Program-made: the position numbers and the translations under genes
Notes under the pieces: generated by a model
Database searches by the model: none
The model's input: only the letters and a program-made list of their open reading frames with translations
Told to the model about the DNA's origin: nothing
Origin: Candidatus Acidulidesulfobacter diazotrophicus
Lineage (GTDB): Bacteria > SZUA-79 > Acidulodesulfobacterales > Acidulodesulfobacteraceae
Direction of reading: 5' to 3'
Assembly: GCA_004195025.1 (NCBI GenBank)
Contig: SGBB01000014.1
Location: 1-56,003, forward strand
DNA length: 56,003 nt
Shown here: one piece after another, positions 2,352-24,182 of the stretch
Numbering within the stretch: position 1 is the first letter of the stretch
Layout of the letters: each line of letters opens with the position of its first letter

Positions 2352-3482
2352 ATGTCATCAAGCATATCAATTATTTCAAATTTTGAAAACTTTAAAGATT
2401 TTATAGAGATACTTGTCGAAAATAAATATTTGCAATGGGCGACTACGCTCTTTGTAGTATTGTCCACAATCGGCGCAGCAATACATAATGAATATATATT
2501 CTGGATAAGTTTAATTTTATTTGCTGCTGGATTATTCATTGCAATATATCAGCAATACAGGAAATTAAACATATATAATCGCGATTTTATTCCGATACCC
2601 GTAGTGATAAATATTTCTAATCCTGCAGATTCAAACAATGCCCTTACTTCAATGTTTTCATTCATTGAGAAAGAATATAAACACGAATATAAGCATCATA
2701 AGGAAAATTTAGAGCAAATATATCATATTAAAGAAGATGAGCTTATTTTTGAATTTAAAGGAAAAATTGAAGACAAAGAAAGTCTAAAAGATTATTTAAA
2801 AATAACAAAGCATGATATTGAAAAACTTGAAAAAAAAATTCCGGCAAAAGATAAATTTTATATTATTTATATTGGTCCAGTTAGTGTTGCAATACTTATA
2901 GGGGCAATTTTTGTAAACAGTTCAGTAGTTATATTTCAATATAATAAATCTTCTAACGGATACAATAAGGTTGCCGAAATAAATGATAGAAACATAAAAG
3001 AAAATGTTTCAAATTTTGAAAAGTTTGACATAGAAAAAATGAGTTATAATAATGTAAATAACTTAGAGAACATAAATTATAATATAACTAATGATAGAAA
3101 TAATGACAATAATAGCGACAGCTTAGTAAAAAGCAATAAAGTTACTCTTGCAATAGATATTTCAAGTCATAAAATAAATTTAAACCAACAGGATATAAAA
3201 GAATATGGAGATATTATCTATTTAAAATCTAAAAATAGCATCGGTACATTAAGTAGAGACGAAGATTGGATAGAGTATGTAAGAGAAATATTCAAAGAGC
3301 TTAATATTCTACAGAGAGAGTATAATGAAATAAAACTGATATATAGTATGCCAGTTTCACTTGGCTTAATGTTAGGCATCGCTATACACAATTATTGGAA
3401 AATTATGCTCACACAGTATGAAATTGAGAATGGAAGCTATACTAATTTAATGTTTACAAATGAAATAAATTATCGTTATTAA
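2352..3482 (+). CDS. Two-TM SAVED-domain protein, putative cyclic-oligonucleotide-gated membrane effector
   Basis: A 376-residue protein. Two hydrophobic segments at about residues 29-44 and 48-66 form a helical hairpin. The rest resembles a SAVED sensor, which is built from two CARF-like halves. The first half has FYIIYIGPVSVAILIGAIF (GPVS at 175-178) followed by a strand and QY. The second has IKLIYSMPVSLGLMLGIAI (PVS at 334-336) followed by ITQY-like sequence and YTNL. The repeated P-V-S-x5-G pattern matches the pseudo-twofold design of SAVED domains. An Asn-rich linker sits at about 225-260. In CBASS, two-TM SAVED proteins (Cap14-type) are nucleotide-gated membrane effectors. Here the gene lies between cas2 and the RT/primase gene in a locus whose Cas10 has an intact GGDD, so cyclic oligoadenylate is the likely ligand. 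The fold assignment is from motifs only, and the membrane-disruption role is inferred. Confidence 0.72.
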   Translation: MSSSISIISNFENFKDFIEILVENKYLQWATTLFVVLSTIGAAIHNEYIFWISLILFAAGLFIAIYQQYRKLNIYNRDFIPIPVVINISNPADSNNALTSMFSFIEKEYKHEYKHHKENLEQIYHIKEDELIFEFKGKIEDKESLKDYLKITKHDIEKLEKKIPAKDKFYIIYIGPVSVAILIGAIFVNSSVVIFQYNKSSNGYNKVAEINDRNIKENVSNFEKFDIEKMSYNNVNNLENINYNITNDRNNDNNSDSLVKSNKVTLAIDISSHKINLNQQDIKEYGDIIYLKSKNSIGTLSRDEDWIEYVREIFKELNILQREYNEIKLIYSMPVSLGLMLGIAIHNYWKIMLTQYEIENGSYTNLMFTNEINYRY

Positions 3483-3705: not shown

Positions 3706-6700
3706 ATGTCGGATTTATTTAATAATTTTTGCGAATATTCTAATTTAAATGCTGCGTTTAGAAGAGTATCAGAAAGCGGCGGAGGACCGGGTGCGGATCA
3801 CGTCACCATTGAAAAATACGCCTCCGAAATAGATAAAAATATTCATATGCTTATAGATGAAATCAAAACTTCATCTTATTTTCCAAAACCGATAGCAAAA
3901 TTTAAATATAAAGCTCCAAATTCTGATAAAGTCAGAATTCTTGGTATTCCTTCCGTAAAAGACAGAGTAGTGCATGTCGGATTGTTAAATGTGATAGAAC
4001 CTGTATTTGAAAAAGAATTTTTAAGATGTTCTTACGGCTATAGACCTCATAAATCAGCGCTTCAGGCAGTAATTAAAACAGAAAAATACTGCAAAGACAA
4101 CTCTGTTAATTTTGCTTTTAATGCAGATATCCACTCTTTTTTCGATTCTATAAACATAAAAATATTAACAGAACAAATAAGTAAGAACATAAAAGAAAAA
4201 CCGTTATTAAATGTAATTTTTTTAATCATACAAAATTCATCGGACGGAAAAGAAACAGGGATTACTCTTGGAGCGCCTACCTCGCCCATTTTTGGAAATA
4301 TTTATTTAAATGATTTTGATAAAACTATTTTCAATAAAGCTAATTCTAAATATTTAAGATATGCAGACGATTTTGTTATTTTTTCAGATTCCGAAGAAAA
4401 TATTCAAAAACTTAAAGATATATCTGTAAACTATTTAAAAGAAAATTTAATTTTAGAACTATCAAAAGAAAAAAGCTCAATTGTTAATATTGACAATAAA
4501 GGCTTTGATTTTCTCGGATATCATTTTAACAGAGGAGGAAAATATCCGTCAGAAAAATCATTACGCAATTTTTCTGAAAAAATTAACGGTCTTACTTTAA
4601 ACAGTATTAAAAATATTTACTTAGACAATATAATAGAGGGGTGGCTAAATTATTTTGATATTAAAATAGTAAACAAAGATAATTATCAAGAGATTATTGA
4701 TGTGATAGATAAGCTGATGACTCAAAAACCAGAGTTAAATATAGGTTTATCTATTTTAAAAAGCGCTTTATTCGCAAAAAATTTTCAGAAAGATATTTCT
4801 TCATTTATTATTAAATCAGTTAAAAATAAAATTTTATCAGACGATGCTGAAACTTTAAATCAAAAATATAAAAGAGACGTCAATTTAGATGCTGCTATTT
4901 TAACTAATGAATTAGATTTAGAAAAAGATTCTTTCGATTTTATAGCCGAAAAAACAGGAGACAAAGACAGGATTTTAAAAATATGCGATTATTTTGTATC
5001 AAAAAGCGAGTATGAAAAAGCCGTTAGATTATTAAACAGATTTATTGAAAATAACCCTGAATTTAATGACGGTTATGAAAAATTATCCGACATCTACAGC
5101 AAAATGGGTTTAATAGGATTGGCTAATAAGATGAAAGAATATAAATACAATGATAATTTTAGCAATAATCACAATAATAATAACGATAATAAAAATGAAA
5201 ATGAAAATGAAAATGAAAAAAATGTTAACGACGGATTAATTAAAGATAATTCAAAAAAATTTAACAAAGAATTCGCTGATAATAAAAAAGATAATTCTGA
5301 TAATGAAAAGCAAGTTGAAAATAGAGACAATGAATTTAATTATAAAAATCAAAAAGTCATAAATTTAAATAATAACGAAATTGCCTCAAAATTTTTAAAT
5401 ATTTTTATAGGTGCTGATAATTATTATGCAAAAGCATCCATTGATGATAATCAAAAACTATATTATAGTAAGATAAACGAGCCGTTAGACGATAATGCCG
5501 TCCTCTCGCATATAAACGGGATATGTACATTGGGCGAATATATTATTAGAAACGATAATTGCATTAATTTTGCCGTAATAGATATAGATATTGCTTCCGA
5601 GTATATTAAGCGCGTTTCCATAAATTCTGAAGAATACAATGATTATCTCAATGAAGCATTGATGTACTGCACTTTTATTAAAAACAGTTTAAAAGAAAAA
5701 ACAGATTCTGAGTGTTATATAGAATTCAGCGGATATAAAGGCTATCATGTATGGTTTTTCTTTGATAAACCGATATTAGCCAAGGTCGGACGAGGATTTG
5801 TAAATTATTTTATTAACGAACATAAATTCAGACCGCATATAAATATAGAAATTTTTCCTAAAGAAAATAAAATAAACCAGAATGCTTCAGGAAGCTTAAT
5901 AAAATTACCTTTAGGTATTAATAAATTAACAGGCGCGGAAACATATTTTGTTGATGATAAAGGAGATAGAATTACCAATCAATTTAAATTTATAATAAAT
6001 GATATTAAAAAAATATCCGAATCATCTATAAATTATATATTAAATCATAAAGATAATAGATATAAAAATACGGAACTCACGCTGGACGATATAGAAAATG
6101 AAGAATTAAATATATTGCTTGATAATTGCAGCGTATTAAAATATTTATACGATAAAGTTAAAATAACTAAATATTTAACTCACACGGAAAGATTATCTAT
6201 ACTTTATTCAATCGGCTATGCATATAACGGCAAAAAATTAGTGCATTATATTATAAGCTATTGCGCAAATTACGATAAAAATACAACTCAAAAATATATA
6301 AATAAAGTAAAAGGCGATAGATATTCTATTTCATGCTATAAAATAAGGGAATGGCTTTCATACATAACTTCACAGGTAGGATGTAATTGTAAATTTAAAC
6401 TGGAAAAAGGAGAATATCCTAATATTCTTTTGTATTTAAAAGAGTTTAACAAAAAAATTGATGAATCAAAAAATGATTTAAAAATAAATCAAACTATTAA
6501 TCAAACAATTGATAAAACTATTAATAAAATTGAATCTGATATATTAAAATCTAACAAATCAGACGTTATAAAAGATATTCATAACAGCAACAACGATAAC
6601 AATAAGAACAATAACGATAACAGTAAGAACAATGATGATAATATAGATAATAATCTCCATATTAATAATGTAAATAATAATATAAACGGTTTAAACAATA

Positions 6701-6999
6701 TAAACGATAAAAATAACATCATAAAAACAGTTGAAAGTAAAAATAATAATGATATTCCTGCGGAAATAACGAAAAATTTTGAAGTCGAAAGTTTTAGCGC
6801 AGATAAATTAAATAAATTAATAATAGAATTTTTAATTAATAAAAAAGAACTTTCACAAAAAATAGAATCGTTTAATAAAACAAAAGAGAATATAGATAAA
6901 ATATTTGAAGAATTAGAGATAGATTCTTTAAATACAGAATACGGAATTTTACGCAAAATAAATAAAAACAACGCTATTAAATATATTATTGAAATTTAA
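3706..6999 (+). CDS. CRISPR-associated reverse transcriptase - TPR - primase-polymerase (AEP) fusion
   Basis: A 1097-residue multidomain polymerase. Residues about 1-320 are a group II intron-like reverse transcriptase: GGGPGADHVT (RT0/1), VRILGIPSVKDRVVH, GYRPHKSA, a DIHSFFDSI block and the catalytic YADD at 219-222, then GFDFLGYHF. No maturase or endonuclease domain follows. Residues about 425-480 look like one or two TPR units. After an Asn/Glu-rich linker (about 490-550) comes an archaeo-eukaryotic primase domain: catalytic DIDI at 626-629, SGYKGYHVWFFFDKP from 675, and EIFPKEN...SLIKLPLG. A PriCT-like helical domain with a VGCNCKF motif (Cys893, Cys895) follows, then another Asn-rich linker and a C-terminal coiled region. 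cas1 starts 76 bp downstream, so the two are probably co-transcribed. RT and primase-polymerase (CAPP) proteins are known partners of type III Cas1. The likely role is conversion of RNA or ssDNA into integrable DNA prespacers, which is inferred. Confidence 0.85.
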   Translation: MSDLFNNFCEYSNLNAAFRRVSESGGGPGADHVTIEKYASEIDKNIHMLIDEIKTSSYFPKPIAKFKYKAPNSDKVRILGIPSVKDRVVHVGLLNVIEPVFEKEFLRCSYGYRPHKSALQAVIKTEKYCKDNSVNFAFNADIHSFFDSINIKILTEQISKNIKEKPLLNVIFLIIQNSSDGKETGITLGAPTSPIFGNIYLNDFDKTIFNKANSKYLRYADDFVIFSDSEENIQKLKDISVNYLKENLILELSKEKSSIVNIDNKGFDFLGYHFNRGGKYPSEKSLRNFSEKINGLTLNSIKNIYLDNIIEGWLNYFDIKIVNKDNYQEIIDVIDKLMTQKPELNIGLSILKSALFAKNFQKDISSFIIKSVKNKILSDDAETLNQKYKRDVNLDAAILTNELDLEKDSFDFIAEKTGDKDRILKICDYFVSKSEYEKAVRLLNRFIENNPEFNDGYEKLSDIYSKMGLIGLANKMKEYKYNDNFSNNHNNNNDNKNENENENEKNVNDGLIKDNSKKFNKEFADNKKDNSDNEKQVENRDNEFNYKNQKVINLNNNEIASKFLNIFIGADNYYAKASIDDNQKLYYSKINEPLDDNAVLSHINGICTLGEYIIRNDNCINFAVIDIDIASEYIKRVSINSEEYNDYLNEALMYCTFIKNSLKEKTDSECYIEFSGYKGYHVWFFFDKPILAKVGRGFVNYFINEHKFRPHINIEIFPKENKINQNASGSLIKLPLGINKLTGAETYFVDDKGDRITNQFKFIINDIKKISESSINYILNHKDNRYKNTELTLDDIENEELNILLDNCSVLKYLYDKVKITKYLTHTERLSILYSIGYAYNGKKLVHYIISYCANYDKNTTQKYINKVKGDRYSISCYKIREWLSYITSQVGCNCKFKLEKGEYPNILLYLKEFNKKIDESKNDLKINQTINQTIDKTINKIESDILKSNKSDVIKDIHNSNNDNNKNNNDNSKNNDDNIDNNLHINNVNNNINGLNNINDKNNIIKTVESKNNNDIPAEITKNFEVESFSADKLNKLIIEFLINKKELSQKIESFNKTKENIDKIFEELEIDSLNTEYGILRKINKNNAIKYIIEI

Positions 7000-7075
7000 T
7001 TAATAAAATTTTTAGGTGTAGAGAGTTTATCTATTATACTATATCTAAATAAATTTTTATTTCATCTGTTTGCAT

Positions 7076-8062
7076 ATGTCAACAATTTATATTTCGGAAC
7101 AAGGTGCAGTTGTTTCTAAAATATCAAGAAGAATAGCCGTACAAAAGAATTCGGAAACTATTTTGGAAATACCTATAATAAAAATAGATAGAATATTTTT
7201 ATTCGGAAATATTCAAATTACGACGCAAGCCATGATTTTTTTATTGGAAAGCAATATAGACGTTTCATTTTTTACAATGAACGGAAAATGCCACGGGAGA
7301 TTAACTTCTATGGAATCTAAAAATATTTTTTTAAGACTGATACAATACGAAAGGTTTTTAGATAAAGAATATCAAATAAAATTAGCAAGGACACTTGTTA
7401 AATCTAAGTTAAACAACGAAGTAGACCTTATTTATTCGTTTTCTAAAAATTACGGAATTTCTAGATTTAAGGAAATATTAATAGGAATAAAAAATTGCAT
7501 TTTGCTATTAGATAACAAAACCACTATAAATTCCATAATGGGAGTGGAAGGCATTGCAGCATCATACTTTTTCAAAGCATTTAGGATGATGATTAGAAAT
7601 GAAAATTTGATTTTCACCGTTAGAGAAAAAAATCCGTCGTTAGATCCTGTAAATTCTTTATTGAGTTTTGGATATACATTAATTACAAATGAAATATTAA
7701 ATATGTTGTTCGGTCATGGATTTGACCCGTATATCGGTTTTTTACACGGTATAAATTACGGACGCCCGTCTCTTGCATTAGATTTGGTTGAAGAATTTAG
7801 AAGCACAATAGACGGTTTTACATTAAAACTTTTGAACAAAGCAATAATTACAAATGATGATTTTATATCTTCAACGGATGGGGTGTTTTTAAAAAATAAT
7901 GCCATGAAAAAATATTTTTACCATTATGATAAACTTATGGCTGAATCAACCCCTAAATCTAAAAGACTTTATATAAAAGATAGAGTTAATATGTTAAAAA
8001 AATCAATAACAAATAAGACGGATTTTATACCTATGAATCAGATCGCTATGCCTTACGTTTAA
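7076..8062 (+). CDS. cas1: Cas1 integrase
   Basis: About 328 residues. The N-terminal beta domain opens MSTIYISEQGAVVSK and contains IDRIFLFGNIQITTQA. The helical catalytic domain has the three metal ligands in the expected contexts: Glu158 in MGVEGIAA, His224 in FLHGINYGRPS and Glu239 in LDLVEEFR. Cas1 with Cas2 inserts prespacers next to the leader. It is a free-standing Cas1, not fused to the RT as in many RT-Cas1 systems; the RT and primase are on the preceding polypeptide. A TTG at 7070 is in frame and would add two residues. The ATG at 7076 gives the normal family start. No strong Shine-Dalgarno sequence is visible before either. The gene ends about 950 bp before the array. Confidence 0.93.
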   Translation: MSTIYISEQGAVVSKISRRIAVQKNSETILEIPIIKIDRIFLFGNIQITTQAMIFLLESNIDVSFFTMNGKCHGRLTSMESKNIFLRLIQYERFLDKEYQIKLARTLVKSKLNNEVDLIYSFSKNYGISRFKEILIGIKNCILLLDNKTTINSIMGVEGIAASYFFKAFRMMIRNENLIFTVREKNPSLDPVNSLLSFGYTLITNEILNMLFGHGFDPYIGFLHGINYGRPSLALDLVEEFRSTIDGFTLKLLNKAIITNDDFISSTDGVFLKNNAMKKYFYHYDKLMAESTPKSKRLYIKDRVNMLKKSITNKTDFIPMNQIAMPYV

Positions 8063-8092
8063 TTTGTTACAAAATTTTTATAAAAAAAATAA

Positions 8093-8203
8093 AATCATCA
8101 AATATTTACCTGGAGTGAAAAAACTAAAACATGGGAAACAGAAGTGGATGAAGAAAAAGTAGACAAAATCAAAATCTTTAACGTCGGGTATAGTATAATA
8201 TAA
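8093..8203 (+). pseudogene. Possible gene 3' fragment
   Basis: A 36-codon stretch is open in this frame, with no start codon, and reads FTWSEKTKTWETEVDEEKV followed by DKIKIFNVG before a TAA at 8201-8203. The composition is protein-like and differs from the AT-only intergenic DNA around it. It may be the end of a gene lost during rearrangement between cas1 and the array. I do not recognise the family. Confidence 0.2.
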
Positions 8204-8205
8204 TT

Positions 8206-8502
8206 ATGGAAAATAAAAATATAACAGCTAATTATAAAGAAAAAAGAATTTATCCTATAGATGTAGGATTAGAATCTTTGTTTTGGAGTTGTCCGGATAC
8301 TCCTGTTCCCGTAGATACAATAATAACCGCAGCAATAAAATCTACAGTATTCGAATATATTGTTTTATGTGTAGAAAAATGGGGCATTGATAGAGTTATG
8401 AAAAATTATAATGAAATAAGAAATTATATAAAAAAGAGCAATCTTTCGTTTCTTGATTTTCAATTTAAAATTATTAAAGAGGTTTTTGATGAACACAGGT
8501 AA
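8206..8502 (+). CDS. Small protein, possibly an antitoxin-like (DUF6922-type) partner of a nucleotidyltransferase
   Basis: A 98-residue soluble protein with no TM segment or signal. The segment SLFWSCPDTPVPVDTIITAA followed by helical sequence with GIDRVMKNYNEI resembles small LFW-type proteins found beside AbiEii-like nucleotidyltransferase toxins. The next ORF starts 14 nt before this one ends, which is typical translational coupling in toxin-antitoxin pairs, but that ORF is only 26 codons long. The gene lies between cas1 and the CRISPR leader. The family assignment is weak, and it could also be an unrelated accessory protein. Confidence 0.35.
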   Translation: MENKNITANYKEKRIYPIDVGLESLFWSCPDTPVPVDTIITAAIKSTVFEYIVLCVEKWGIDRVMKNYNEIRNYIKKSNLSFLDFQFKIIKEVFDEHR

Positions 8503-8569
8503 ATCTCAAAAAGCGATAAATCTGCTTGATGAAATACAAGATTATCCGAATAAGCTTTACACCGGATAA
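8489..8569 (+). pseudogene. Truncated second gene of a putative toxin-antitoxin pair
   Basis: A 26-codon ORF overlaps the 3' end of the preceding gene by 14 nt. It begins MNTGKSQKAINLLDEIQDYP and then stops. The start, with a helical segment and an overlap with an upstream small gene, looks like the beginning of a longer protein cut off close to the CRISPR leader. It may mark a recombination joint. Function is unknown. Confidence 0.25.
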
Positions 8570-9010
8570 ACCTATTATTATGCCGCGCACAACTTACACG
8601 GCTGAACTCACGACAGTCATAGGGCTAATTTATATTTATTATTAATTAATATCAATTGACAGAGTTTTTATCAATGCGACCCTACACTATATTTAAATTT
8701 GTTATTAATTAATATTAATTTATTTTGTGAATTATAATGAATTATATTTTGGAATAAATAATGGCTAATTTTTTTATATAATAAAATTATCAATAAGTTA
8801 AAATGATATATCAGTATTACCAATACTTTCCGTTATCTATTTTTTCATAAAAAAGTGTTGACTTAACGGAAGTAATTATGTATATTGATATTAAGTTACA
8901 TATTTATTTGAATTTTTAATAATAAATTTGTTAATAAGCTGTGGATAAATGATACATTACGAAAAACTATCTATATAAATTAATAAATTAAATAACTTAT
9001 GAAAGACGGT
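8570..9010 (+). promoter_or_regulatory. CRISPR leader
   Basis: 441 bp of AT-rich non-coding DNA lie directly upstream of the first repeat. Leader placement on this side is supported by the degenerate final repeat at the opposite (right) end, by the ATTGAGAC repeat terminus reading rightward, and by a promoter at 8858-8886 pointing into the array. A match to the DnaA box (TGTGGATAA) is at 8940-8948. No ORF is seen. Confidence 0.75.
8858..8886 (+). promoter_or_regulatory. Predicted sigma-70 promoter of the CRISPR array
   Basis: TTGACT at 8858-8863 and TATATT at 8881-8886 are separated by exactly 17 bp. That is one mismatch per hexamer from consensus, and few places in this AT-rich window combine it with a G+C-containing -35. 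Transcription would start near 8893, about 118 bp before the first repeat, producing the pre-crRNA in the direction expected for Cas6 processing. Confidence 0.6.
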
Positions 9011-12000
9011 ATTTGAATATTTCCCTGATTTAAAAGGGATTGAGACGCATATGCCTCTTTCCATTCAAAGAGGTGTTGCTTAAATAATTTGAATATTTCC
9101 CTGATTTAAAAGGGATTGAGACTCTATATCCATTGAGCAGTAAATGCTCAATGGAATTGAAATTTGAATATTTCCCTGATTTAAAAGGGATTGAGACCTG
9201 CTTAACAGGGTTTAATCTAAAATCGGTATCTTCATTTGAATATTTCCCTGATTTAAAAGGGATTGAGACAAATTTATATACTGTGTAAAATACACATATA
9301 TAAATCCCATTTGAATATTTCCCTGATTTAAAAGGGATTGAGACTAAATAATATAGCAATAGAAAGAACATTGCTATATACCAGATTTGAATATTTCCCT
9401 GATTTAAAAGGGATTGAGACCCTTAAGCCACCATATTTTACTTATACTAATTATAGGTTTATTTGAATATTTCCCTGATTTAAAAGGGATTGAGACTGTT
9501 TACATTAGATGAAGAAGTGCAAAGCTATTTTTTTGCCATATTTGAATATTTCCCTGATTTAAAAGGGATTGAGACTCATAGGTTAAGGTAAAAACTGCCG
9601 AGTTCGTCCACATAGAATTTGAATATTTCCCTGATTTAAAAGGGATTGAGACACTGCTGAGTCTATCTGGTCTCCCAGATAGACGTTCATTATTATCATT
9701 TGAATATTTCCCTGATTTAAAAGGGATTGAGACTTTAACTTCATACAACTCCAACGAAAAATTCTTTCGTTCTATATTTGAATATTTCCCTGATTTAAAA
9801 GGGATTGAGACCCCAACAGCAGAAACATACTCCTTTTTTAAAACATCTTTCGATTTGAATATTTCCCTGATTTAAAAGGGATTGAGACCGTATAACGCGA
9901 CTCGATATGAATTATTTTAATTTATTTTATTTGAATATTTCCCTGATTTAAAAGGGATTGAGACGTAGTTAAGGCGATTACTATTCTATCTCTCGCCTCT
10001 CCATTTGAATATTTCCCTGATTTAAAAGGGATTGAGACCCCTCTCATATAGATTTCCTAATTCAATCATACTTCTATTTGAATATTTCCCTGATTTAAAA
10101 GGGATTGAGACATTGCCGAATCCGTCCATAAGGACGGATCGGTTTTTAACATTTGAATATTTCCCTGATTTAAAAGGGATTGAGACGGGTCAGGGTTATT
10201 TTCCCCAACGCTGACCTATGAATCATGAATTTGAATATTTCCCTGATTTAAAAGGGATTGAGACGGCTCGGTTTTTACTTCTACGGGGACGAGATAATCG
10301 ATTTGAATATTTCCCTGATTTAAAAGGGATTGAGACTCTCGGGAATCGATAACAAGTTGTCAGGTTTTCCCCGGCCAAAAATATCTCCTCGGAATTTTCC
10401 GGATTGAGACTCTCGGGAATCGATAACAAGTTGTCAGTATTTTCAGGCATATTTGAATATTTCCCTGATTTAAAAGGGATTGAGACCGCCGTTTAAATAG
10501 ACGTAGTCTTCTGAGCTTAAAAAAATATTTGAATATTTCCCTGATTTAAAAGGGATTGAGACCGGATCGGTTTTTAACTGGACGGGGACGAGATAATCCC
10601 CATTTGAATATTTCCCTGATTTAAAAGGGATTGAGACTTTGTTTCAATTGGAGGTAATTGCGATATAAAATTACCATTTGAATATTTCCCTGATTTAAAA
10701 GGGATTGAGACGAAAAATCCGAATTTATTATTTCCATAATAATATCTCCATTTGAATATTTCCCTGATTTAAAAGGGATTGAGACCAGAGTCCGTCCATA
10801 AGGACGAACTCGTATAGATCGAAACATTTGAATATTTCCCTGATTTAAAAGGGATTGAGACCTGGCAGACCATTTCCACACTCTCTGAAAACGGCGAACC
10901 GATTTGAATATTTCCCTGATTTAAAAGGGATTGAGACATGACGGAACTCATCATCGCATTGGCAAATTTTGTTTTATTATTTGAATATTTCCCTGATTTA
11001 AAAGGGATTGAGACCATCTTGTTACCCCTTCATGCAACTGGGCAAGCACGATATGATATTTGAATATTTCCCTGATTTAAAAGGGATTGAGACAGATGGA
11101 TTCGTTTCTATATTGACCGTAATGGCATAATCGATTTGAATATTTCCCTGATTTAAAAGGGATTGAGACATGATCGCACTTGCTTAATGCAACTTCAGCA
11201 TTATTCAATTTGAATATTTCCCTGATTTAAAAGGGATTGAGACCTACCTTCTCCCTAATGGATTTATGGCTTTTATATTTAAATTTGAATATTTCCCTGA
11301 TTTAAAAGGGATTGAGACACAAACAAACGCTCCCTTCAAATACAAATCTCCATTTTTATTTGAATATTTCCCTGATTTAAAAGGGATTGAGACGGTATCG
11401 AGAACTTATCGTTTTCATAAATTTTTTTAATCAAATTTGAATATTTCCCTGATTTAAAAGGGATTGAGACGGATCGGTTTTTATTTGAATTGGAATTAAA
11501 TAATCAGATTTGAATATTTCCCTGATTTAAAAGGGATTGAGACATTTTGATCTTGATCATACTTGCATTCGAATATCAAAATATTTGAATATTTCCCTGA
11601 TTTAAAAGGGATTGAGACCCATTTTTTCAAGCTCACTTATTTCTCTATACATTTTATTTGAATATTTCCCTGATTTAAAAGGGATTGAGACGGGACAAAA
11701 TTATAAAATTTCTCATGATTTATTCTCCTTCATTTGAATATTTCCCTGATTTAAAAGGGATTGAGACTCTACTTTACAATTTTTACAAAGCATTTTTTTA
11801 ATCCATTTGAATATTTCCCTGATTTAAAAGGGATTGAGACAATATTGGGGATATTTTTTGAAAACCAATACTTTTCTAATTTGAATATTTCCCTGATTTA
11901 AAAGGGATTGAGACTTAACCAGAGAGGTAAAGAAGATATAAATTGATTTTTAATATTTGAATATTTCCCTGATTTAAAAGGGATTGAGACATTCTTGTCC

Positions 12001-15000
12001 CAGGAGCGGAGCAAGGATTCTAATCTTCTAGATTTGAATATTTCCCTGATTTAAAAGGGATTGAGACTATACATGTTTTTTAGTATATCCTTATTATATT
12101 TCTTGATCTCAATTTGAATATTTCCCTGATTTAAAAGGGATTGAGACATGTTTGATCCTTCTGGAAGGGTAGTTATCCCTTCCTCCAATATTTGAATATT
12201 TCCCTGATTTAAAAGGGATTGAGACATCCTGGGAGGTATATCCAAAAATTTTGCCTTTTGTTAAATTTGAATATTTCCCTGATTTAAAAGGGATTGAGAC
12301 ATGTATCTACCAAACCTTGTAGATACTTCTTTTAAAATTATTTGAATATTTCCCTGATTTAAAAGGGATTGAGACCCTTGACAAGCGGGGTATTAAGAGT
12401 TAAAATTTAAAAAGAGGATTTGAATATTTCCCTGATTTAAAAGGGATTGAGACCTATTTTTACTTCTGTTGGAAACTTTTCCAGCATATATTTGAATATT
12501 TCCCTGATTTAAAAGGGATTGAGACCATTTTCATCTTCATCATATTTTGTCTCAAATAACAAAAAATTTGAATATTTCCCTGATTTAAAAGGGATTGAGA
12601 CTGCTCCCTATCGAAAGGGACGGAAAATTTTATAAATTTATTTGAATATTTCCCTGATTTAAAAGGGATTGAGACTTAATATTTCCATACAGTTTTCAAA
12701 AGACAAAATATTTGAATTTGAATATTTCCCTGATTTAAAAGGGATTGAGACGACTTCCCAGTCCTTACTGCAACTACGTTTCTTAATGAAACATTTGAAT
12801 ATTTCCCTGATTTAAAAGGGATTGAGACGTTTTTATGTTGCTACCCTCTAATATTTCTATCCACCCATTTGAATATTTCCCTGATTTAAAAGGGATTGAG
12901 ACTCTATTTAACTTTTGTATTTCATCTTTAATTATTATGTATTTGAATATTTCCCTGATTTAAAAGGGATTGAGACCATTATGGAAAACAGATAATCCAG
13001 ACCTATTACTCCACATTTGAATATTTCCCTGATTTAAAAGGGATTGAGACATTCTTCTTTCATCATATTTACATTCAAACACTAAAAAAAATTTGAATAT
13101 TTCCCTGATTTAAAAGGGATTGAGACGAGATAATCCCCGTCCCCATACTGAGATCCTTCGACCAAATTTGAATATTTCCCTGATTTAAAAGGGATTGAGA
13201 CACTGTCCAGTCCTTACTGCGACTACGCCATTTAAATAGAATTTGAATATTTCCCTGATTTAAAAGGGATTGAGACCTGGGTTTAACCCAGCCTTGTACA
13301 AATTGAATTTCTTAATTTTATTTGAATATTTCCCTGATTTAAAAGGGATTGAGACCAAGAGACACAGGGTCTCATGACATGTTTGAAAGATAAAATCATT
13401 TGAATATTTCCCTGATTTAAAAGGGATTGAGACCCACTTCGTCGTCCCGATGCCAATTCATGCCCATTTTAAATTTGAATATTTCCCTGATTTAAAAGGG
13501 ATTGAGACAAGCATCACTTAAAAAATTATCGCATTCCATCATTTTTATTTGAATATTTCCCTGATTTAAAAGGGATTGAGACATTGACAAGCTCGGAACC
13601 TGAAAATTCTGGGAGCGTAGAATTTGAATATTTCCCTGATTTAAAAGGGATTGAGACATTTCTTTCTCTAATTCATTCAGAATTAGATACTCTTCTTTAT
13701 TTGAATATTTCCCTGATTTAAAAGGGATTGAGACAATATTATCGCCAAAAGTGTTATTTTTTGTTTGAAAGCGAATTTGAATATTTCCCTGATTTAAAAG
13801 GGATTGAGACCTCCCTTGAACAACAACTCACCATTTTTAAAAGAGACCCCATTTGAATATTTCCCTGATTTAAAAGGGATTGAGACCTTGATATTTTCCG
13901 CATATAAGCAAAACCTTACTGCTGATTTGAATATTTCCCTGATTTAAAAGGGATTGAGACATATCAAAAAAATTGATATAAAAATAAATTTAAAATTTAT
14001 ATTTGAATATTTCCCTGATTTAAAAGGGATTGAGACAATATCTAACGACATCATTTGCGATACTGTATAGCTCGATTTGAATATTTCCCTGATTTAAAAG
14101 GGATTGAGACGATTATACATAAGAAATCTATAATCTATAATCCAAAAAAATTTGAATATTTCCCTGATTTAAAAGGGATTGAGACATCGCATTTATTATC
14201 ACTTATAGAGACCTCTACTCCCAAATTTGAATATTTCCCTGATTTAAAAGGGATTGAGACTTGTTGGTTATCATTATCAAAAAAGTATCTACCGAACCGA
14301 TTTGAATATTTCCCTGATTTAAAAGGGATTGAGACATCGCATTTATTATCACTTATAGAGACCTCTACTCCCAAATTTGAATATTTCCCTGATTTAAAAG
14401 GGATTGAGACATAATTTGTACCATATTGGGTATTGTCAAGACAATACCCTTATTTGAATATTTCCCTGATTTAAAAGGGATTGAGACACCCTTCCGGTCT
14501 CGGAAGGGTTTTTAAATAATCCAGAAATTTGAATATTTCCCTGATTTAAAAGGGATTGAGACATATATTTTCTTTAAATTCTAAAATAAAGAACATAATA
14601 AAATTTGAATATTTCCCTGATTTAAAAGGGATTGAGACGGTTTAGCCGATGATTATGTTTTATGCTTATTCTATTTACATTTGAATATTTCCCTGATTTA
14701 AAAGGGATTGAGACGGTCATTGTGCAATCACCTCCTCAAGTGAATTTAACCGATTTGAATATTTCCCTGATTTAAAAGGGATTGAGACGTTTTTATGTAA
14801 TCTATAAGCCTATTGGCTTCCATATAGGGATTTGAATATTTCCCTGATTTAAAAGGGATTGAGACTTTCTCTCACACTTCCTTTTTCTTTAATACTTGAA
14901 ACTAATTTGAATATTTCCCTGATTTAAAAGGGATTGAGACCTTCCCAATAGCCTATCCTTCCCGCATCTCCGTCAGCTCCAATTTGAATATTTCCCTGAT

Positions 15001-15996
15001 TTAAAAGGGATTGAGACGAGTCTTGGGCGAGATATGCGGGTATAACGTGCATTTCCATTTGAATATTTCCCTGATTTAAAAGGGATTGAGACCTGTAGTA
15101 ATTATCTTGCTTGGATCAATAGGTTCTTCGTATTTGAATATTTCCCTGATTTAAAAGGGATTGAGACTCCCATCTGCTATCCATCAAGGCGCATAAATAA
15201 GCGCGCATTTGAATATTTCCCTGATTTAAAAGGGATTGAGACTCTATACGAAGGGGTCTAAATGATGCTTGGGTGTAAAAATTTGAATATTTCCCTGATT
15301 TAAAAGGGATTGAGACATCATAATAAACAAAACTTGATTCATCTTGTTTGATAATTTCATTTGAATATTTCCCTGATTTAAAAGGGATTGAGACCTATAT
15401 CAAAAAAATTGATATAAAAATAACTCACAAGATTTGAATATTTCCCTGATTTAAAAGGGATTGAGACCCATTGACTGAATTGCTTATCTTCAGTCATTTC
15501 CACAGCGATTTGAATATTTCCCTGATTTAAAAGGGATTGAGACAATTCAAGGAGATTATCTTCATTTCTTTTAATCCAACAATTTGAATATTTCCCTGAT
15601 TTAAAAGGGATTGAGACGTTAACTGCAAAATAAATATCCAATTTACTTTGCAGTATAATTTGAATATTTCCCTGATTTAAAAGGGATTGAGACCTTTGTA
15701 TAGTATAATTCATAGCATTTATTTTTTGAATTTATTTGAATATTTCCCTGATTTAAAAGGGATTGAGACGATAATACCCTTTTTTTTGCAAAAATTCCTC
15801 TCGCGTCATATTTGAATATTTCCCTGATTTAAAAGGGATTGAGACCGTTATCGTCCAAAGACGAAACGAATGAATCGAATAGTTCATTTGAATATTTCCC
15901 TGATTTAAAAGGGATTGAGACAATAAAACTTACCTTCTTTAAAACATTCTAAAATCCTCATTTGAATATTTCCCTGATTTAAATAAGGATAAAGAC
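9011..15996 (+). CRISPR. Type III CRISPR array, 93 repeats and 92 spacers
   Basis: A 36-bp repeat begins ATTTGAATATTTCCC, has a TTTAAAA centre and ends GGGATTGAGAC. I counted 91 perfect or near-perfect copies, one strongly degenerate copy at 10375-10410 and a degenerate last copy at 15960-15996 (37 nt). The 92 spacers are about 36-45 nt long, with unit spacing of 72-81 bp. TCCCT and AGGGA in the repeat can form a short stem, leaving ATTGAGAC as the expected 5' crRNA tag. The leader and promoter are on the left. Spacers are far more G+C-rich and varied than host intergenic DNA. Translated ORFs inside the array only reflect the repeat being open in several frames. Spacer content is discussed in the findings. 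One spacer occurs twice (14186-14224 and 14336-14374). Confidence 0.99.
10375..10410 (+). repeat. Degenerate CRISPR repeat inside the array
   Basis: This slot is exactly 36 nt long and in register (74 and 76 bp from its neighbours), but only the last ten bases (GGATTGAGAC) and scattered positions match the repeat. The spacers on both sides (10337-10374 and 10411-10450) share the same first 27 nt. All other internal repeats appear intact. Confidence 0.75.
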
Positions 15997-17365: not shown

Positions 17366-18808
17366 ATGGAATTAGATTTCACTGACTTAGCTTTATTGAT
17401 TGGCACTAATCCATTGCCTAATTATATTGCTTCAAAATATTTTATTGAAGAGAATAAACATCTAAAAAAAATATGGCTGGTATGTTCCGAAGAAAACCTA
17501 AATATAAATCAAAATAGTACAGGCAAGTATGCTTTAAATCTTAAAGAACTTCTTTCAAAAGAAGAAGCCCCGCCCGATTATATTAACGACACTCAAAAAA
17601 TTGAATTTCCGGAAATAATATATATTGAAGATATCGGCAGCAAAAAAATGATAGAAAAGCAATTAGAAAAAATAGTAAAAGATTCTAACAATAGAAAATT
17701 GCATTTATTTTTTACCGGAGGTTCTAAAGCTATGTCTGCATATTCTTATTCCTATTTAAAAGAAAAATTTAAGAACAAGTTTAGCGCATCCTACCTCTCA
17801 GCCCGAGATTTTAAAATTATGTTCGACGATGAAGACAATATAACCAAAAACATTGCAGATAAAATAAAAATAAATTTCAACGATTTAATTAAGCTGCATG
17901 GATTTGAAAAAAGAGATACCAAGAAACAAAATGATATTTCTATTGAATTTGAAAAATTTATTGATAAAATTATTGAAAAATTTAGGATAATAATAAAAAA
18001 TGAAAAATTAGATGAATTTTATTCTAATTCAGGCGGTTATAATAGAAATATTTTTAAACCTGACGACGACGACAATGATAAAATAATGGAAAAAATATTT
18101 AGCAGTATAACAAAAGAAGATTCTAATATCTTAAAAGCTGCCACATCTGATAAATGTTTAGAAGAAGAAGAAAATAAAATAAAAACCGACGATGATAAAT
18201 TAAAATTTAACAAGAAGGTTAATATTTTTAAAAAAATTTTAAGTTATAATCCTAACGAAACATTCATGGAAGTAATAGGCTCTTTTCCTGAAGATTACAA
18301 AATTTATCGCTATAATAACAGCAACAGACCTAATTTTCAAACGAAAATTGGATATGAAAAATATAAAAAAGCGGTTGATTTTTTAGACGGATTATGGTTA
18401 GAACAATATGTAGGAAAAATTATAAAGAAATATTTTGAAAATGATTTTGATGAAATTTTATTCAATCAAAAGCCTTATAGGAATTCAGATGACCCAAGTA
18501 ATAATTTTGAGCTTGATGTTGTTTTGATTAAAGGATGTCAATTAATAGGCATTAGCTGTACCACCGCAGAATGTAAGGATTTATGCAAAAAAAAAGGTTT
18601 TGAAATAATATTAAGAACAAGACAGATTGGAGGAACTGAAACAAAAGCTATTTTAATTACGGGAGCTGACGAAAAAATAGTTGAAAAATTAAAAACAGAA
18701 TTAGTTTTAGAAACAGGAACGGTTAAAACAAATATTACTGTTATAGGAAAAAATGGTTGGGAAGAAAGTAAATTAAAAGAAAAAATTAAAGAATTTATTT
18801 TAAATTAA
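17366..18808 (+). CDS. CARF-domain nuclease, Card1/Can2-like (DUF1887 type)
   Basis: A 480-residue ancillary effector. The N-terminal CARF domain (about 1-160) has LLIGTNPLPNYIASKYF and the ligand-loop motif FTGGSKAMS at 116-124. The C-terminal third is a PD-(D/E)xK-like domain as in Card1/Can1/Can2 (DUF1887): FELDVVLIKGCQLIGISCTT (E382, D384) followed by a helix and ILRTRQIGGTETKAILITG. These enzymes bind cyclic oligoadenylate made by Cas10 and then cleave nucleic acid. At the usual E-x-K strand this protein has S-C-T (397-399), so the canonical lysine is absent or replaced by a nearby residue such as K403 or K407. A middle Asp/Lys-rich segment (about 220-290) is variable. AAGGAG precedes the ATG. 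The gene heads the interference operon, 35 bp before cas10. Confidence 0.82.
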   Translation: MELDFTDLALLIGTNPLPNYIASKYFIEENKHLKKIWLVCSEENLNINQNSTGKYALNLKELLSKEEAPPDYINDTQKIEFPEIIYIEDIGSKKMIEKQLEKIVKDSNNRKLHLFFTGGSKAMSAYSYSYLKEKFKNKFSASYLSARDFKIMFDDEDNITKNIADKIKINFNDLIKLHGFEKRDTKKQNDISIEFEKFIDKIIEKFRIIIKNEKLDEFYSNSGGYNRNIFKPDDDDNDKIMEKIFSSITKEDSNILKAATSDKCLEEEENKIKTDDDKLKFNKKVNIFKKILSYNPNETFMEVIGSFPEDYKIYRYNNSNRPNFQTKIGYEKYKKAVDFLDGLWLEQYVGKIIKKYFENDFDEILFNQKPYRNSDDPSNNFELDVVLIKGCQLIGISCTTAECKDLCKKKGFEIILRTRQIGGTETKAILITGADEKIVEKLKTELVLETGTVKTNITVIGKNGWEESKLKEKIKEFILN

Positions 18809-18843: not shown

Positions 18844-20352
18844 ATGAATAAAACGGCAGTTTTCATAGATATTATGTCAATACAAAAATATATTTTTTCT
18901 TCCAATCAATTAAAAGATAATATTGGAGCTTCGCATATTGTAGAATCAATTTTTGACGAATTAAAAGAAAAATTTCAATGTAGTTACGCAGGCGGAGGTA
19001 GCGCTCTTATATATTTTAATACGATAACCGAAGCAAAGAACGCCATGAAAGAATGGAGCTCAAACCTATTACAAACAGCTCCAGGCATAGTGCCTTTTAT
19101 AACAATTGAGGAAAATTTTGATACTTCAACATATGCTGAATCTAGGAAAAAAATTATTAAGAAATCAATAAAACAAAAAAATGAATTTATTCCTATTACT
19201 GCATTAAGCGCATTTGGAATAACTGCAGATTGTCCTAAAACAGGATTATCATCGGAGGTTTTTTGCGAAAAGTGCGCCGACCAGGATATATCTTATTTAT
19301 CGTCTGTCAGCTATACAAAGATTTTAAAAGCAGAAGAAGCAAATAATAAAATAATAAATTATTTTAAAGATATTTTAAATAATGACGACAACGGACTTGA
19401 TAAATATGAATTTCCGGATAAATTTGATGAGATGGGAGGCACAAAGGGTGAAAATAACCACATAGCCGTGGTTCATATTGACGGGAACGATATGGGTTTA
19501 TTATTTAAAAAACAAGCTACGGAAGAAGAAATGAAAAAACTTTCAGCAGGTTTAACAGATAGTGTTAAATCTTCGTTTAAACAAGTACTGCAAAAGCTTA
19601 TACCATTAATTGACAAGCTGAAACGTAATGGAGAAATTACACTAAAAGAAAAACCAGCAAATAACGGTAAATTAATATTATTACCCGTAAGACCTATAGT
19701 TTTGGGCGGAGATGATGTTACTTTTGTTTGCGATGCAAGGATTGGATTATGGTGTGCTATGGAATTTATTAAAGCTTTTGAATTACAAGATATTTGTAAA
19801 GAAAATAAAATAACTGCTTGCGGTGGAGTATCAATTGTAAAAACTAATTATCCTTTTTACAGAGCATATAAAATGGCAGAAGATTTATGTAATACGGCTA
19901 AAAAGAAGGCTAAAAAGAAAAGGAGAAATGAAAGAAATGAAATAGATAATTCAGCAGCAGATTCATATATTGATTTTCATATTTCATTTGGAGGAATGAG
20001 CGATAGCATAGATAGAATTAGAATAAAAAACTATAAAAGCGCCGATAATAAATTGCTTTATAAAAGACCGTATAAAATTAAAGAAATACCAAAATTATTA
20101 AATTGTATTAAAAAATTAAAAGAAAAATTACCTCAATCAAAAATTAAGAAATTTAGGGAAATTTTGTATAGCGGAGAAATAGCTGCTAAAGAATTTATCA
20201 ATGAATTAAATTATAGAGGCAATACATTACCCGCATTCAGTCATTCCGACGAAGCAAAAAAAGGATTTTCAGATGATAAATCACCATATATAGACATAAT
20301 TGAATTAATGGATTTTTATCCGCTTTCATTAATTTTAAAGGAGGATCTATAA
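18844..20352 (+). CDS. cas10: Cas10, HD-less, with intact GGDD palm
   Basis: The large subunit of the type III complex, short at 502 residues. The first palm begins almost at residue 1 (FIDIMSIQKYIFSSNQLKDN), so the usual N-terminal HD nuclease is missing. A zinc-binding segment follows (CPKTGLSSEVFCEKCADQ, about 137-157). The second palm has HIDGNDMG (211-218) and the catalytic GGDD at 288-291 in IVLGGDDVTFVCD, then CGGVSIVK and a helical C-terminus. The protein should synthesise cyclic oligoadenylate when target RNA is bound but not cut ssDNA through an HD site. This matches subtype III-D, variant Dv. A GAGGGA precedes the ATG. The next gene follows after 4 bp. Confidence 0.92.
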   Translation: MNKTAVFIDIMSIQKYIFSSNQLKDNIGASHIVESIFDELKEKFQCSYAGGGSALIYFNTITEAKNAMKEWSSNLLQTAPGIVPFITIEENFDTSTYAESRKKIIKKSIKQKNEFIPITALSAFGITADCPKTGLSSEVFCEKCADQDISYLSSVSYTKILKAEEANNKIINYFKDILNNDDNGLDKYEFPDKFDEMGGTKGENNHIAVVHIDGNDMGLLFKKQATEEEMKKLSAGLTDSVKSSFKQVLQKLIPLIDKLKRNGEITLKEKPANNGKLILLPVRPIVLGGDDVTFVCDARIGLWCAMEFIKAFELQDICKENKITACGGVSIVKTNYPFYRAYKMAEDLCNTAKKKAKKKRRNERNEIDNSAADSYIDFHISFGGMSDSIDRIRIKNYKSADNKLLYKRPYKIKEIPKLLNCIKKLKEKLPQSKIKKFREILYSGEIAAKEFINELNYRGNTLPAFSHSDEAKKGFSDDKSPYIDIIELMDFYPLSLILKEDL

Positions 20353-20356
20353 TTTT

Positions 20357-21007
20357 ATGATTAATAATAATTATAATTATCAAATAGCAATAAGATTAAA
20401 ATCTGATGCTTTAATCGGCTCAGGCGAAGGGTTCGGCTCAATTATTGATACGGATGTTGTTTTTGACGACCTTGGTCTTCCTTATATTCCAGCAAAAAGA
20501 GTTAAAGGTATTATGCTGGAATCCGCTCAAGAATTAAATGAAATGCTTAATATATTTAATAAAAGTGTAGATATTGATAATATATTCGGAAAAAAAGGCG
20601 AGAAAGAAGGTTTGGTATATTTTTCTAATTTTTATTTAGAAAATTACGCAAATATTAGAGAATGGCTTGAATATTACTGTAAAAAAACTAAGATTATAAA
20701 CAAACAAAGTATTATTGCTCAAATGACTTCGCTGCGATATTCAACAGCAATAGATAGCAAAACTAATTTGACAAAAGAAGGTTCTCTCAGAACTGAACGT
20801 ATCATAAATAGCGGAAAAATTTTTGTCTCAGATATTTATTTTCCGGAAAAATTAGAAGAAAATATCGCCCTTATCTGTCAAAACACAAGAAGAATAGGAA
20901 CTAAAAGAACAAGAGGTTTAGGAGAAATTGAAGTTTTATTATTAAAAAATGGGCAATCTATCAACAATATTGCTTTAAAAAAGCTTGAGTCGGAGGATTA
21001 TAAATGA
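20357..21007 (+). CDS. cas7: Cas7-like RAMP backbone subunit (III-D)
   Basis: A single RAMP domain of 216 residues. The early strand ALIGSGEGFGS is followed by IDTDVVFDDLGLPYIPAKRV, which aligns with the Csm3 segment carrying the catalytic Asp before LPYIPGSSLKG; Asp31 is the candidate RNA-cleaving residue. The C-terminus has the RAMP glycine-rich loop NTRRIGTKRTRGLGEIEV. It overlaps the next gene by 4 nt (ATGA), implying coupled, near-equimolar synthesis. In the III-Dv complex a Cas7 domain of this kind is fused to Cas5 and Cas11. Here it is a separate gene in the same position. GGAGG lies 12 nt before the ATG. Confidence 0.8.
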   Translation: MINNNYNYQIAIRLKSDALIGSGEGFGSIIDTDVVFDDLGLPYIPAKRVKGIMLESAQELNEMLNIFNKSVDIDNIFGKKGEKEGLVYFSNFYLENYANIREWLEYYCKKTKIINKQSIIAQMTSLRYSTAIDSKTNLTKEGSLRTERIINSGKIFVSDIYFPEKLEENIALICQNTRRIGTKRTRGLGEIEVLLLKNGQSINNIALKKLESEDYK

Positions 21008-22683
21008 ATTCAAAATCGTTTATCAGGTATAGAATTAATACATTAAGCCCTATAATTATAAGCGATAGAAGCGGCGATGCAAATATGATTAATTCTAAAT
21101 CTTACATAAGCGGAAATAATGTGTTAGGTATATTTGCAAATAAGTATATATACATCAATAAAAATAAGTCTTCAGAAAACAAAGAAAATATTAATAATAT
21201 TAATAATAAAGAATTTCATAACGATGATTTATTTTATAACTGGTTTTTGAACGAAAAATTGTTATTTACAAATGGATATATATCAGACGAGGAAGAGACT
21301 TATTTTGCTCCACCTATTTCAATAAAGTCTGATAAATATAACGAATATAATATTTTTGACTTGTTTTACGATGAGTATGAAGCATCTTCAGAAGCGCTAG
21401 AAAAAATTGATAATTTTGTGTCAATAAACAATGATTTAATAAAAAAAAATTACGTTAAAAAATCACTGTCTTTTCATCACGCAAGAGATAAAAAAACAGG
21501 CACTGCAAAAAAAGGCGATATATTTAATTACGAATCTATTTCTGAAAATCAAATATTTAAAGGAAGTATTATCGGAGGAGAAGAACATCTTAAAAATTTT
21601 GTAAATATGTTTGGTACAAAATTTATCGCCTATATCGGAAAATCAAAAAATTCTCAATACGGTAAAATAGAGATTGAACTCGAGTATCCTTTGTTAATAG
21701 AAAAACAAAATTATTGTCCGGAAATTAAAACAGCAGAAATTTGTAGCGATGACGATTCCGTTGTTTTAACTTTATTATCCGATACTATTATTTATAATGA
21801 AAATGGTTTCTCTGCAGTAAACATATATGATTTTGAAAAATATCTTAATAAAAGGCTAAAAGACTTGTTGTTAGATAATAATAACAATAATAATAAAGTC
21901 AACAATGTAAGCGGATATCAAGACTTAAAATTAACGAAAGCTTTTATACAAAAAGGCAAATCAGAAGAATTTGTGGGTATATGCAAATTAAAAAATCAAA
22001 GCGAAAATGTATTTTCGGCAGGCAGTTGTTTTTTACTTGAAGGTTTATCTCTAAAATACAATCATCACGAAATGTTAAAAAAAATTTGCATTGAAGGTAT
22101 AGGAGAAAAAACGTATGAAGGTTTTGGCAGAGCAGTATGCGGTTGGCAAAATAAAATTGAAAATTATTCAATGGCATCAATGGCAAAGGATGCAGCCGAA
22201 GATGAGCAAATAGAAAATAAAAAACCGGAATATGAGCGACCAGACTTTGTAACTAATTTAATTAAAAATATTATTAAAGACAATTTGATGAATGTAATAA
22301 TAGGGGAAGCAATGGAAGACGCCAATTCGTTTAAAAATACACCGTCAAAGTCCCTTATGGGCAAGCTACAACTGCTTGCAAGAAATGATATAATTGGGTT
22401 TAGAGAAAAATTAGATATTATAGTCGGAGATAAGAATAAACCGGCTAAGATGCAGCTTGAAAATAGCGATAGCAATAATAATAATATGTTAGATTTTATA
22501 AGAGATTTAAATAATAGCAGTAGCGATAAATTTAATATAAATAGAATAAAAAATAAAAACAGCGGATTATTTAAAAACTTGGATGAATTCATTAATGATA
22601 TGAAAAACGATAGTAATTTAATAAACAATTTAAAAAGAGTATATTTTTCAACTTTTTTTAATTTTATAAGAAAAAATAAATAA
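21004..22683 (+). CDS. csx10: Cas5-like (Csx10-type) RAMP with probable C-terminal Cas11-like domain
   Basis: A 559-residue protein. The N-terminal RAMP part (RINTLSPIIISDRSGDANMI, SYISGNNVLGIFANKYI, then KFIAYIGKSKNSQYGKIEIE) and a later glycine-rich segment IEGIGEKTYEGFGRAVCG fit a Csx10/Cas5-like subunit, which would bind the crRNA 5' tag. From about residue 410 the sequence becomes entirely helical and charged (FVTNLIKNIIKDNLMNVIIG and onward to the end), consistent with a fused Cas11-like small subunit, although no direct motif proves it. An Asn-rich linker lies at about 290-305. No separate csm2/cas11 gene exists in the operon, which supports the fusion reading. GGAGG precedes the overlapping ATG. 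Confidence 0.75.
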   Translation: MNSKSFIRYRINTLSPIIISDRSGDANMINSKSYISGNNVLGIFANKYIYINKNKSSENKENINNINNKEFHNDDLFYNWFLNEKLLFTNGYISDEEETYFAPPISIKSDKYNEYNIFDLFYDEYEASSEALEKIDNFVSINNDLIKKNYVKKSLSFHHARDKKTGTAKKGDIFNYESISENQIFKGSIIGGEEHLKNFVNMFGTKFIAYIGKSKNSQYGKIEIELEYPLLIEKQNYCPEIKTAEICSDDDSVVLTLLSDTIIYNENGFSAVNIYDFEKYLNKRLKDLLLDNNNNNNKVNNVSGYQDLKLTKAFIQKGKSEEFVGICKLKNQSENVFSAGSCFLLEGLSLKYNHHEMLKKICIEGIGEKTYEGFGRAVCGWQNKIENYSMASMAKDAAEDEQIENKKPEYERPDFVTNLIKNIIKDNLMNVIIGEAMEDANSFKNTPSKSLMGKLQLLARNDIIGFREKLDIIVGDKNKPAKMQLENSDSNNNNMLDFIRDLNNSSSDKFNINRIKNKNSGLFKNLDEFINDMKNDSNLINNLKRVYFSTFFNFIRKNK

Positions 22684-22747
22684 AATCATTAAACTTATTA
22701 ACTCTATTAATTATATATTAAATTATATATTAAAAAGGCGGTAAAAT

Positions 22748-24181: not shown

Positions 24182-24182
24182 A

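Follow-up and report, generated by a model that had tools for sequence, protein, structure and literature searches.

The reverse transcriptase (RT)-less type III-A system of S. thermophilus favors hairpin-forming DNA during adaptation (Zhang et al. 2021, reviewed in PMC9048733), and the stem-loop targets named in the available sections of that review are single-strand origins, oriT, tRNA and rRNA, and riboswitch terminators. The same sections describe acquisition of spacers from RNA by RT-Cas1 in Marinomonas, Vibrio, and Fusicatenibacter, with an rRNA-strand preference in the Vibrio system, and contain, in the text searched, no mention of a hairpin enrichment for RT-Cas1 (PMC9048733). CART-CAPP proteins are fusions of an RT with a CRISPR-associated primase-polymerase, and the searched parts of two publications on them yielded no spacer-structure bias (PMC10415136, PMC8211822). 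Natural spacer repertoires of RT loci are largely unmatched and have been called “enigmatic” (PMC5513706). Since the spacers of RT-CRISPR loci seldom have a match, it is difficult to tell what these loci record and which kind of molecule serves as the source. A structural signature that recurs across natural arrays offers access to the prespacer substrate from the sequence alone and is open to a laboratory acquisition assay. For the hairpin-rich array considered here, the original prediction had stated that no standard explanation was known, which was too strong in view of the hairpin-DNA preference published for RT-less type III-A adaptation (available sections of PMC9048733).

The window, that is, the complete stretch of 56,003 nucleotides analyzed, encodes on the plus strand an RT-PrimPol fusion of the CART-CAPP type (positions 3706 to 6999). 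Its single open reading frame of 1,097 amino acids carries the Pfam domains RVT_1 and AEP-TOTE, with the RT at residues 73 to 274, the AEP domain at 589 to 776, and a C-terminal Gam/Gp157-like domain; PADLOC assigns RT and PrimPol to “adaptation polymerase.” The RT domain keeps the catalytic YxDD as YADD, and the protein is an RT fused to an AEP/PrimPol as in CART-CAPP; the PrimPol motifs DID and GYHVW appear intact. The RT resembles the solved CaCART-CAPP RT (8bgj) and the PrimPol the solved CAPPs 7nqd and 7nqf. Cas1 (7070 to 8062, plus strand) is encoded directly downstream. No Cas2 was recognized by eye between cas1 and the array (8063 to 9010), where the sole listed plus-strand open reading frame has 98 amino acids (8206 to 8502). 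Cas6 is located on the minus strand (278 to 1405). A predicted SAVED/CARF membrane effector (2352 to 3482), a predicted Card1-like/Csx1-like CARF nuclease (17366 to 18808), and the type III-D effector genes for Cas10d, a Csm3-like protein, Cas5/Csx10, Cas7, Csx19, and a RAMP protein (18844 to 26881) are all on the plus strand; of the type III-D set, Cas10d, Csx10/Cas5, Csx19, and Cas7 were assigned by PADLOC (18844 to 24833) and RAMP by Pfam (24833 to 26881).

The CRISPR array (9011 to 15996, plus strand) is composed of 91 perfect copies of the 36-nt repeat ATTTGAATATTTCCCTGATTTAAAAGGGATTGAGAC and one degenerate final copy at about 15960 to 15996, and this degenerate distal repeat suggests transcription from left to right. 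There are 91 inter-repeat units, not the 92 spacers counted before; one of them is a 114-nt composite, and 89 distinct spacers have a normal length of 36 to 45 nt. Hairpins were scored as perfect arms with a loop of at least 3 nt, and the null model comprised 200 rounds of dinucleotide-preserving shuffles. Stems of at least 7 bp occurred in 22 of the 89 spacers (24.7%), compared to a shuffle mean of 3.1 and a maximum of 8 in the 200 rounds. For stems of at least 8 bp the number was 13 (14.6%; shuffle mean, 0.8), for at least 9 bp it was 6 (0.2), and for at least 10 bp it was 3 (0.05). The hairpin excess is thus confirmed as real. The original prediction of at least 20 spacers with inverted-repeat arms of 7 bp or more was borne out, also against shuffled spacers, the check it had proposed. 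Its expectation of well under one case with 10 bp was likewise appropriate, but the four such cases reported are three when loops are at least 3 nt.

The longest arms, 11 bp, are in spacer 2 (9129 to 9155), followed by 10 bp in spacers 5 (9351 to 9379) and 9 (9661 to 9684) and 9 bp in spacers 4 (9272 to 9305), 71 (14428 to 14449), and 72 (14488 to 14509, followed by T5). Arms of 8 bp are found in spacers 15 (10120 to 10139), 43 (12303 to 12326), 61 (13667 to 13687), 84 (15396 to 15416), and 85 (15472 to 15496), and in the inverted repeats of spacers 33 (11544 to 11582, with the arms at both spacer ends) and 87 (15622 to 15654). The arms are 7 bp long in spacers 1 (9054 to 9073), 10 (9753 to 9771), 21 (10653 to 10675, flush with the spacer 3′ end), 22 (10725 to 10742), 41 (12163 to 12183), 65 (13961 to 13979), 67 (14111 to 14135), and 73 (14570 to 14593) and in the inverted repeat of spacer 48 (12678 to 12712). 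The examples listed earlier were real, with small corrections at four sites. The hairpin given as 9130 to 9154 with 10-bp arms extends by one position on each side; that at 14428 to 14449 has 9 bp and a 4-nt loop, since 10 bp would need a 2-nt loop; that at 14488 to 14509 has its T5 but arms of 9 instead of 8 bp; and the site at 13277 to 13291 reaches only 6 bp with a loop of at least 3 nt and 7 bp with a 1-nt loop. The hairpins of spacers 4, 22, 33, and 48 were absent from that list.

The composite unit (10337 to 10450) contains the 27-nt stretch TCTCGGGAATCGATAACAAGTTGTCAG twice and, in between, a strongly diverged repeat-like stretch that ends with GGATTGAGAC and has a different stem (CGGAA/TTCCG), so that the unit reads as two spacers that may flank a foreign-looking or diverged repeat. 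Identical spacers are present at 14186 to 14224 and 14336 to 14374, with one other spacer between them.

The host genome (G000; 2.46 Mb in 47 contigs) contains three further cas1 genes besides the one linked to the RT-PrimPol gene. An array on contig C8 adjoins the genes for Cas3b, Cas8b, and Cas7b and belongs to an RT-less type I-B system; here, arms of at least 7 bp occurred in 1 of 73 spacers compared to 2.5 expected, so there was no excess. When the spacers were trimmed to an equal length of 36 nt, the window array and the C8 array differed significantly both at 7 bp (Fisher p = 0.0001) and at 8 bp (p = 0.0006). A hairpin was present in 2 of the 24 spacers of the small array C1a near an RT-less cas1 of the same genome.

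RT-PrimPol homologues were found in 8 of 30 genomes examined of the host's phylum, and the associated arrays have repeats near-identical to those of the window and no spacers in common with it. Hairpin spacers numbered 14 of 71 in G011 (3.0 expected), 5 of 29 in G003 (1.3 expected), 5 of 30 in G001 (1.5 expected, two of them with 12 bp), and 7 of 69 in G019 (2.8 expected); none was present among the 16 spacers of G012. The G004 array, in a locus that lies next to a cas1 fragment and is interrupted by the ends of contigs, had 14 of 44 (2.1 expected), and the G006 array, in a genome without a close cas1 or RT relative, had 0 of 17. The repeat family comprises 453 spacers in total, or 383 clusters if homologous spacers are counted once, and stems of at least 8 bp were present in 43 of these clusters compared to 4.2 expected and stems of at least 10 bp in 15 compared to 0.27. 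The Cas1 gene of G011 (G011:C10:36525-37370) contains two in-frame TGA codons, and the adjoining RT-PrimPol locus is otherwise similar.

About 25 of the 453 spacers could be traced to a source, and all sources found were integrated phage-like elements or other DNA mobile elements, or host genes. Phage and plasmid collections gave no convincing protospacer, and viral contigs scanned by sequence pattern and by protein gave no usable source match. In the window, only spacers 65 and 84 have a source, a common element of the relatives G006 and G003 in which the matched site precedes the gene for a tyrosine integrase (L075 9876, L076 10178), and the stem TATATCAA/TTGATATA of spacer 65 is present at this site. 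The stretch matched by both spacers is missing from the homologous site in the host genome (G000:C19). The phage-like elements matched by G011_62, L066_3, and G011_70 also carry the stem in their own sequence.

These sources are not hairpin-rich overall. Stems of at least 7 and 8 bp occurred in 6.3% and 2.1% of the 40-mers of the matched elements and in 7.3% and 2.5% of those of the host genome, compared to 17.9% and 10.4% of the 453 spacers. The enrichment of the spacers over their source is about 4.5-fold for stems of at least 8 bp and about 11-fold for those of at least 10 bp. The original prediction had named equally frequent long arms in random pieces of the matched genomes as the outcome that would speak against it; spacer-length windows of the matched mobile elements gave 6.4% and 2.3%, and the excess in the window array persists (binomial p = 3e-8 for at least 7 bp and 1e-7 for at least 8 bp). 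Stem-loops are therefore enriched in natural arrays over the source as well as over the co-resident non-type-III array. The background hairpin density of the sources found indicates a preference during acquisition, as far as those sources are concerned. Compared to random sites of the same elements, the traced protospacers were mildly more structured (mean structure percentile, 0.40; p = 0.14; n = 25).

The main rival explanation is random sampling of major sources whose entire genomes are dense in hairpins, such as single-stranded RNA phages or other structured replicons. This is possible for many of the unmatched spacers, and the failure to find matches in the collections and viral-contig patterns tried would fit. 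The reading frames also agree with such a source, since the hairpins are mostly in antisense-open frames that may be viral coding sequence: in the 22 window hairpin spacers, the antisense frame was open in all 22 (80% in shuffles), as was the frame on the spacer strand (84% in shuffles), and several antisense frames give plausible protein, such as KEEYLILNELEKE of spacer 61 and AVEMTEDKQFSQW. Several spacers tile one small gene or match homologous motifs: the overlapping spacers 54, 20, and 15 share one antisense frame, hand-read as LVEGSQYGDGDYLVPVQLKTDPSLWTDSA, with spacers 17 and 32 as homologues, and homologous motifs are shared by spacers 33 (antisense frame ILIFECKYDQDQN), 46, and 53 and by spacers 49 and 55. 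However, every source found was a DNA mobile element or host gene with background hairpin density; traced spacers had stems of at least 8 bp in 2 of 24 cases, similar to the whole set although the numbers are small; no RdRp-like GDD signature stood out in the antisense frames; and enrichment is also seen in unrelated RT-carrying bacteria. A hairpin-dense source is rather unlikely. In G011_21, G011_48, G011_67, and L065_26 (L054/L065), the antisense frames encode CPYGQ-like motifs with near-palindromic codons (TGCCCATATGGGCA), and this repeated motif is a source of some of the hairpins.

Within the spacers, stem positions were spread along the length and not centered, which would be expected if a hairpin-dense source were cut at random and is contrary to the prediction for a protected folded unit. 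Stems that reach exactly to the 3′ end of the spacer were in mild excess (19 of 81 compared to about 12% in the null model, p = 0.003), and those flush with the 5′ end (13 of 81) are explained by truncation of longer stems, with a null of about 12% per end. The 3′ excess, together with the snap-back products made by RT-Cas1 in vitro (PMC11014452), agrees with one cause proposed before, extension of a folded-back 3′ end by the RT/primase, which would create the hairpin during prespacer synthesis. Against this stand the truncated longer stems, which account for much of the contact with spacer edges, and the hairpins already contained in the source sequences of G000_64, G011_62, and L066_3 and also in that of G011_43/44, where the stem differs but still pairs; in the family of G011_43/44 and L092, bases change and pairing is kept (CCCG/CGGG to CCTCG/CGAGG). 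The overlapping spacers G003_5/12 and G019_27/29 show that the source hairpin is intact across the overlap. Only the weak A/T-rich 7-bp stems of L065_33 and L065_40 were not reproduced in the relatives available. Since the sources and overlapping spacers found mostly contain the hairpin themselves, snap-back synthesis was rejected as a general cause and is improbable; the 3′ excess may possibly reflect a minority contribution of it or spacer ends defined by stems.

The spacers might also derive from intrinsic terminators or the 3′ ends of transcripts, as suggested originally, and a few terminator-like spacers such as spacer 72 would agree with this, but a T4 run followed within 7 nt in 13 of 145 stems and preceded the stem in 9 of 145, in spacers that are T-rich anyway (T4 in 231 of 453). 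These counts and the open antisense frames leave terminator capture unsupported and very improbable. As an indication of the RNA strand, an asymmetry of G-U versus A-C pairs was not significant after shuffling; five GNRA loops on the target strand and none on the spacer strand are suggestive only.

Type III immunity needs spacers that are antisense to mRNA. A Shine-Dalgarno sequence followed by ATG was found in antisense orientation in 33 and in sense orientation in 0 of the 453 spacers, and mapped mobile-element protospacers were antisense in 14 cases and sense in 1. Many of the Shine-Dalgarno spacers start within a few nucleotides of this motif on the mRNA strand, and AAGGAGGCTTTAAAATG-like starts occur in four arrays. 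Sense spacers include G019_37 and G019_42, in genes conserved across relatives and taken as host genes, and a G011 spacer (L054 11401-11440) near a degenerate array end, which matches the host 16S rRNA (TGGGTTAAGTCCCGCAACGAGCGCAACCC...), identified by sequence; the latter is compatible with an origin from RNA or rDNA. Because both orientations occur, with a few host-derived spacers in sense, the antisense bias is most likely the result of selection after insertion rather than of the direction of cDNA synthesis. As orientation matters so strongly, self-complementary spacers that work in either orientation might be kept more often. The gain would be at most two-fold if half of the insertions were useless, compared to the about 4.5-fold (at least 8 bp) and 11-fold (at least 10 bp) observed, and such selection can hardly be responsible.

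Unrelated arrays with RT or RT-Cas1 were taken from plasmids of Microcystis, Nostoc, Pseudanabaena, Anabaena, Gloeothece, and Tistrella; a search for RT-Cas fusions by the RT domain alone yielded mainly group II introns. In these arrays, 8 of 212 spacers had stems of at least 8 bp, and the shuffle expectation was 0.79 (p = 2e-6). Among 427 spacers of RT-less arrays from unrelated bacteria (I-D, III-D, III-B, and others), there were 6 such cases compared to 1.8 expected, a weak excess, half of which came from one Rhodothermus array. The comparison with RT-less arrays suggested originally thus yielded the excess in the presence of an RT but no clear contrast (p = 0.08 in the direct comparison), so that an association of the hairpin excess with the RT is suggestive and a dependence on it is not established. 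On a Rhodothermus marinus plasmid (L146 3054-5410), an RT-less Cas4-Cas1 array contains spacers with 14-bp perfect stems, so that spacers rich in hairpins also occur outside RT loci.

Probably, although with limited confidence, the RT-PrimPol/Cas1 adaptation module prefers foreign segments that fold into a single-strand stem-loop. This is supported by an excess that is real, recurs in unshared spacers of related RT-PrimPol loci, and is absent from the co-resident RT-less type I-B array, and by hairpins that, in most cases, the sources found already carry; the uncentered stems, the lack of a source for most spacers, and the mild structure bias at the traced sites speak against it. The module would sample foreign nucleic acid with a preference for stem-loop-forming segments, and folded RNA, or folded cDNA or single-stranded DNA made from it, may survive longer in the presence of nucleases or may be a better substrate for RT/primase and Cas1. 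Such segments would become prespacers more often, and the mapped mobile-element spacers that persist would be mostly those antisense to mRNA. Among the three causes offered by the original prediction, capture or protection of a folded strand is the one that survives. More specifically, folded RNA or its cDNA may be the prespacer substrate of RT-associated adaptation, with the stem-loop as a recognition or survival signal, which is put forward tentatively; equally tentative is the accompanying proposition that RT arrays of unrelated bacteria are enriched for hairpins from invader transcripts. Transcriptional recorders that employ RT-Cas enzymes would be biased by such a hairpin preference.

With CART-CAPP, the locus shares the domain architecture beside cas1, and both domains resemble solved structures of this group; in the fusions assayed in the available text, the PrimPol was inactive, whereas the AEP motifs here look intact. 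With the RT-Cas1 systems, the locus shares an RT-associated type III adaptation and a largely unmatched natural repertoire, but its RT is separate from Cas1 and fused to a PrimPol, and an RNA origin of the spacers is a proposal here. The signature links RT loci with the hairpin preference reported for RT-less type III adaptation. As in S. thermophilus, a type III adaptation machinery oversamples stem-loops and a co-resident non-type-III system does not. The S. thermophilus III-A system, as described in the sections available, has no RT, DNA hairpins were inferred to be its substrate, and its adaptation assays used plasmids and the host genome; in contrast, the present data come from arrays as they occur in nature, belong to a type III-D system with an RT-PrimPol, and concern mobile-element sequences, mostly in antisense-open frames. 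In the literature as far as it was accessible, hairpin biases described previously are confined to a small number of other type III systems, and new here is a strong hairpin-preference signature in natural arrays that an RT-PrimPol III-D locus has built up.
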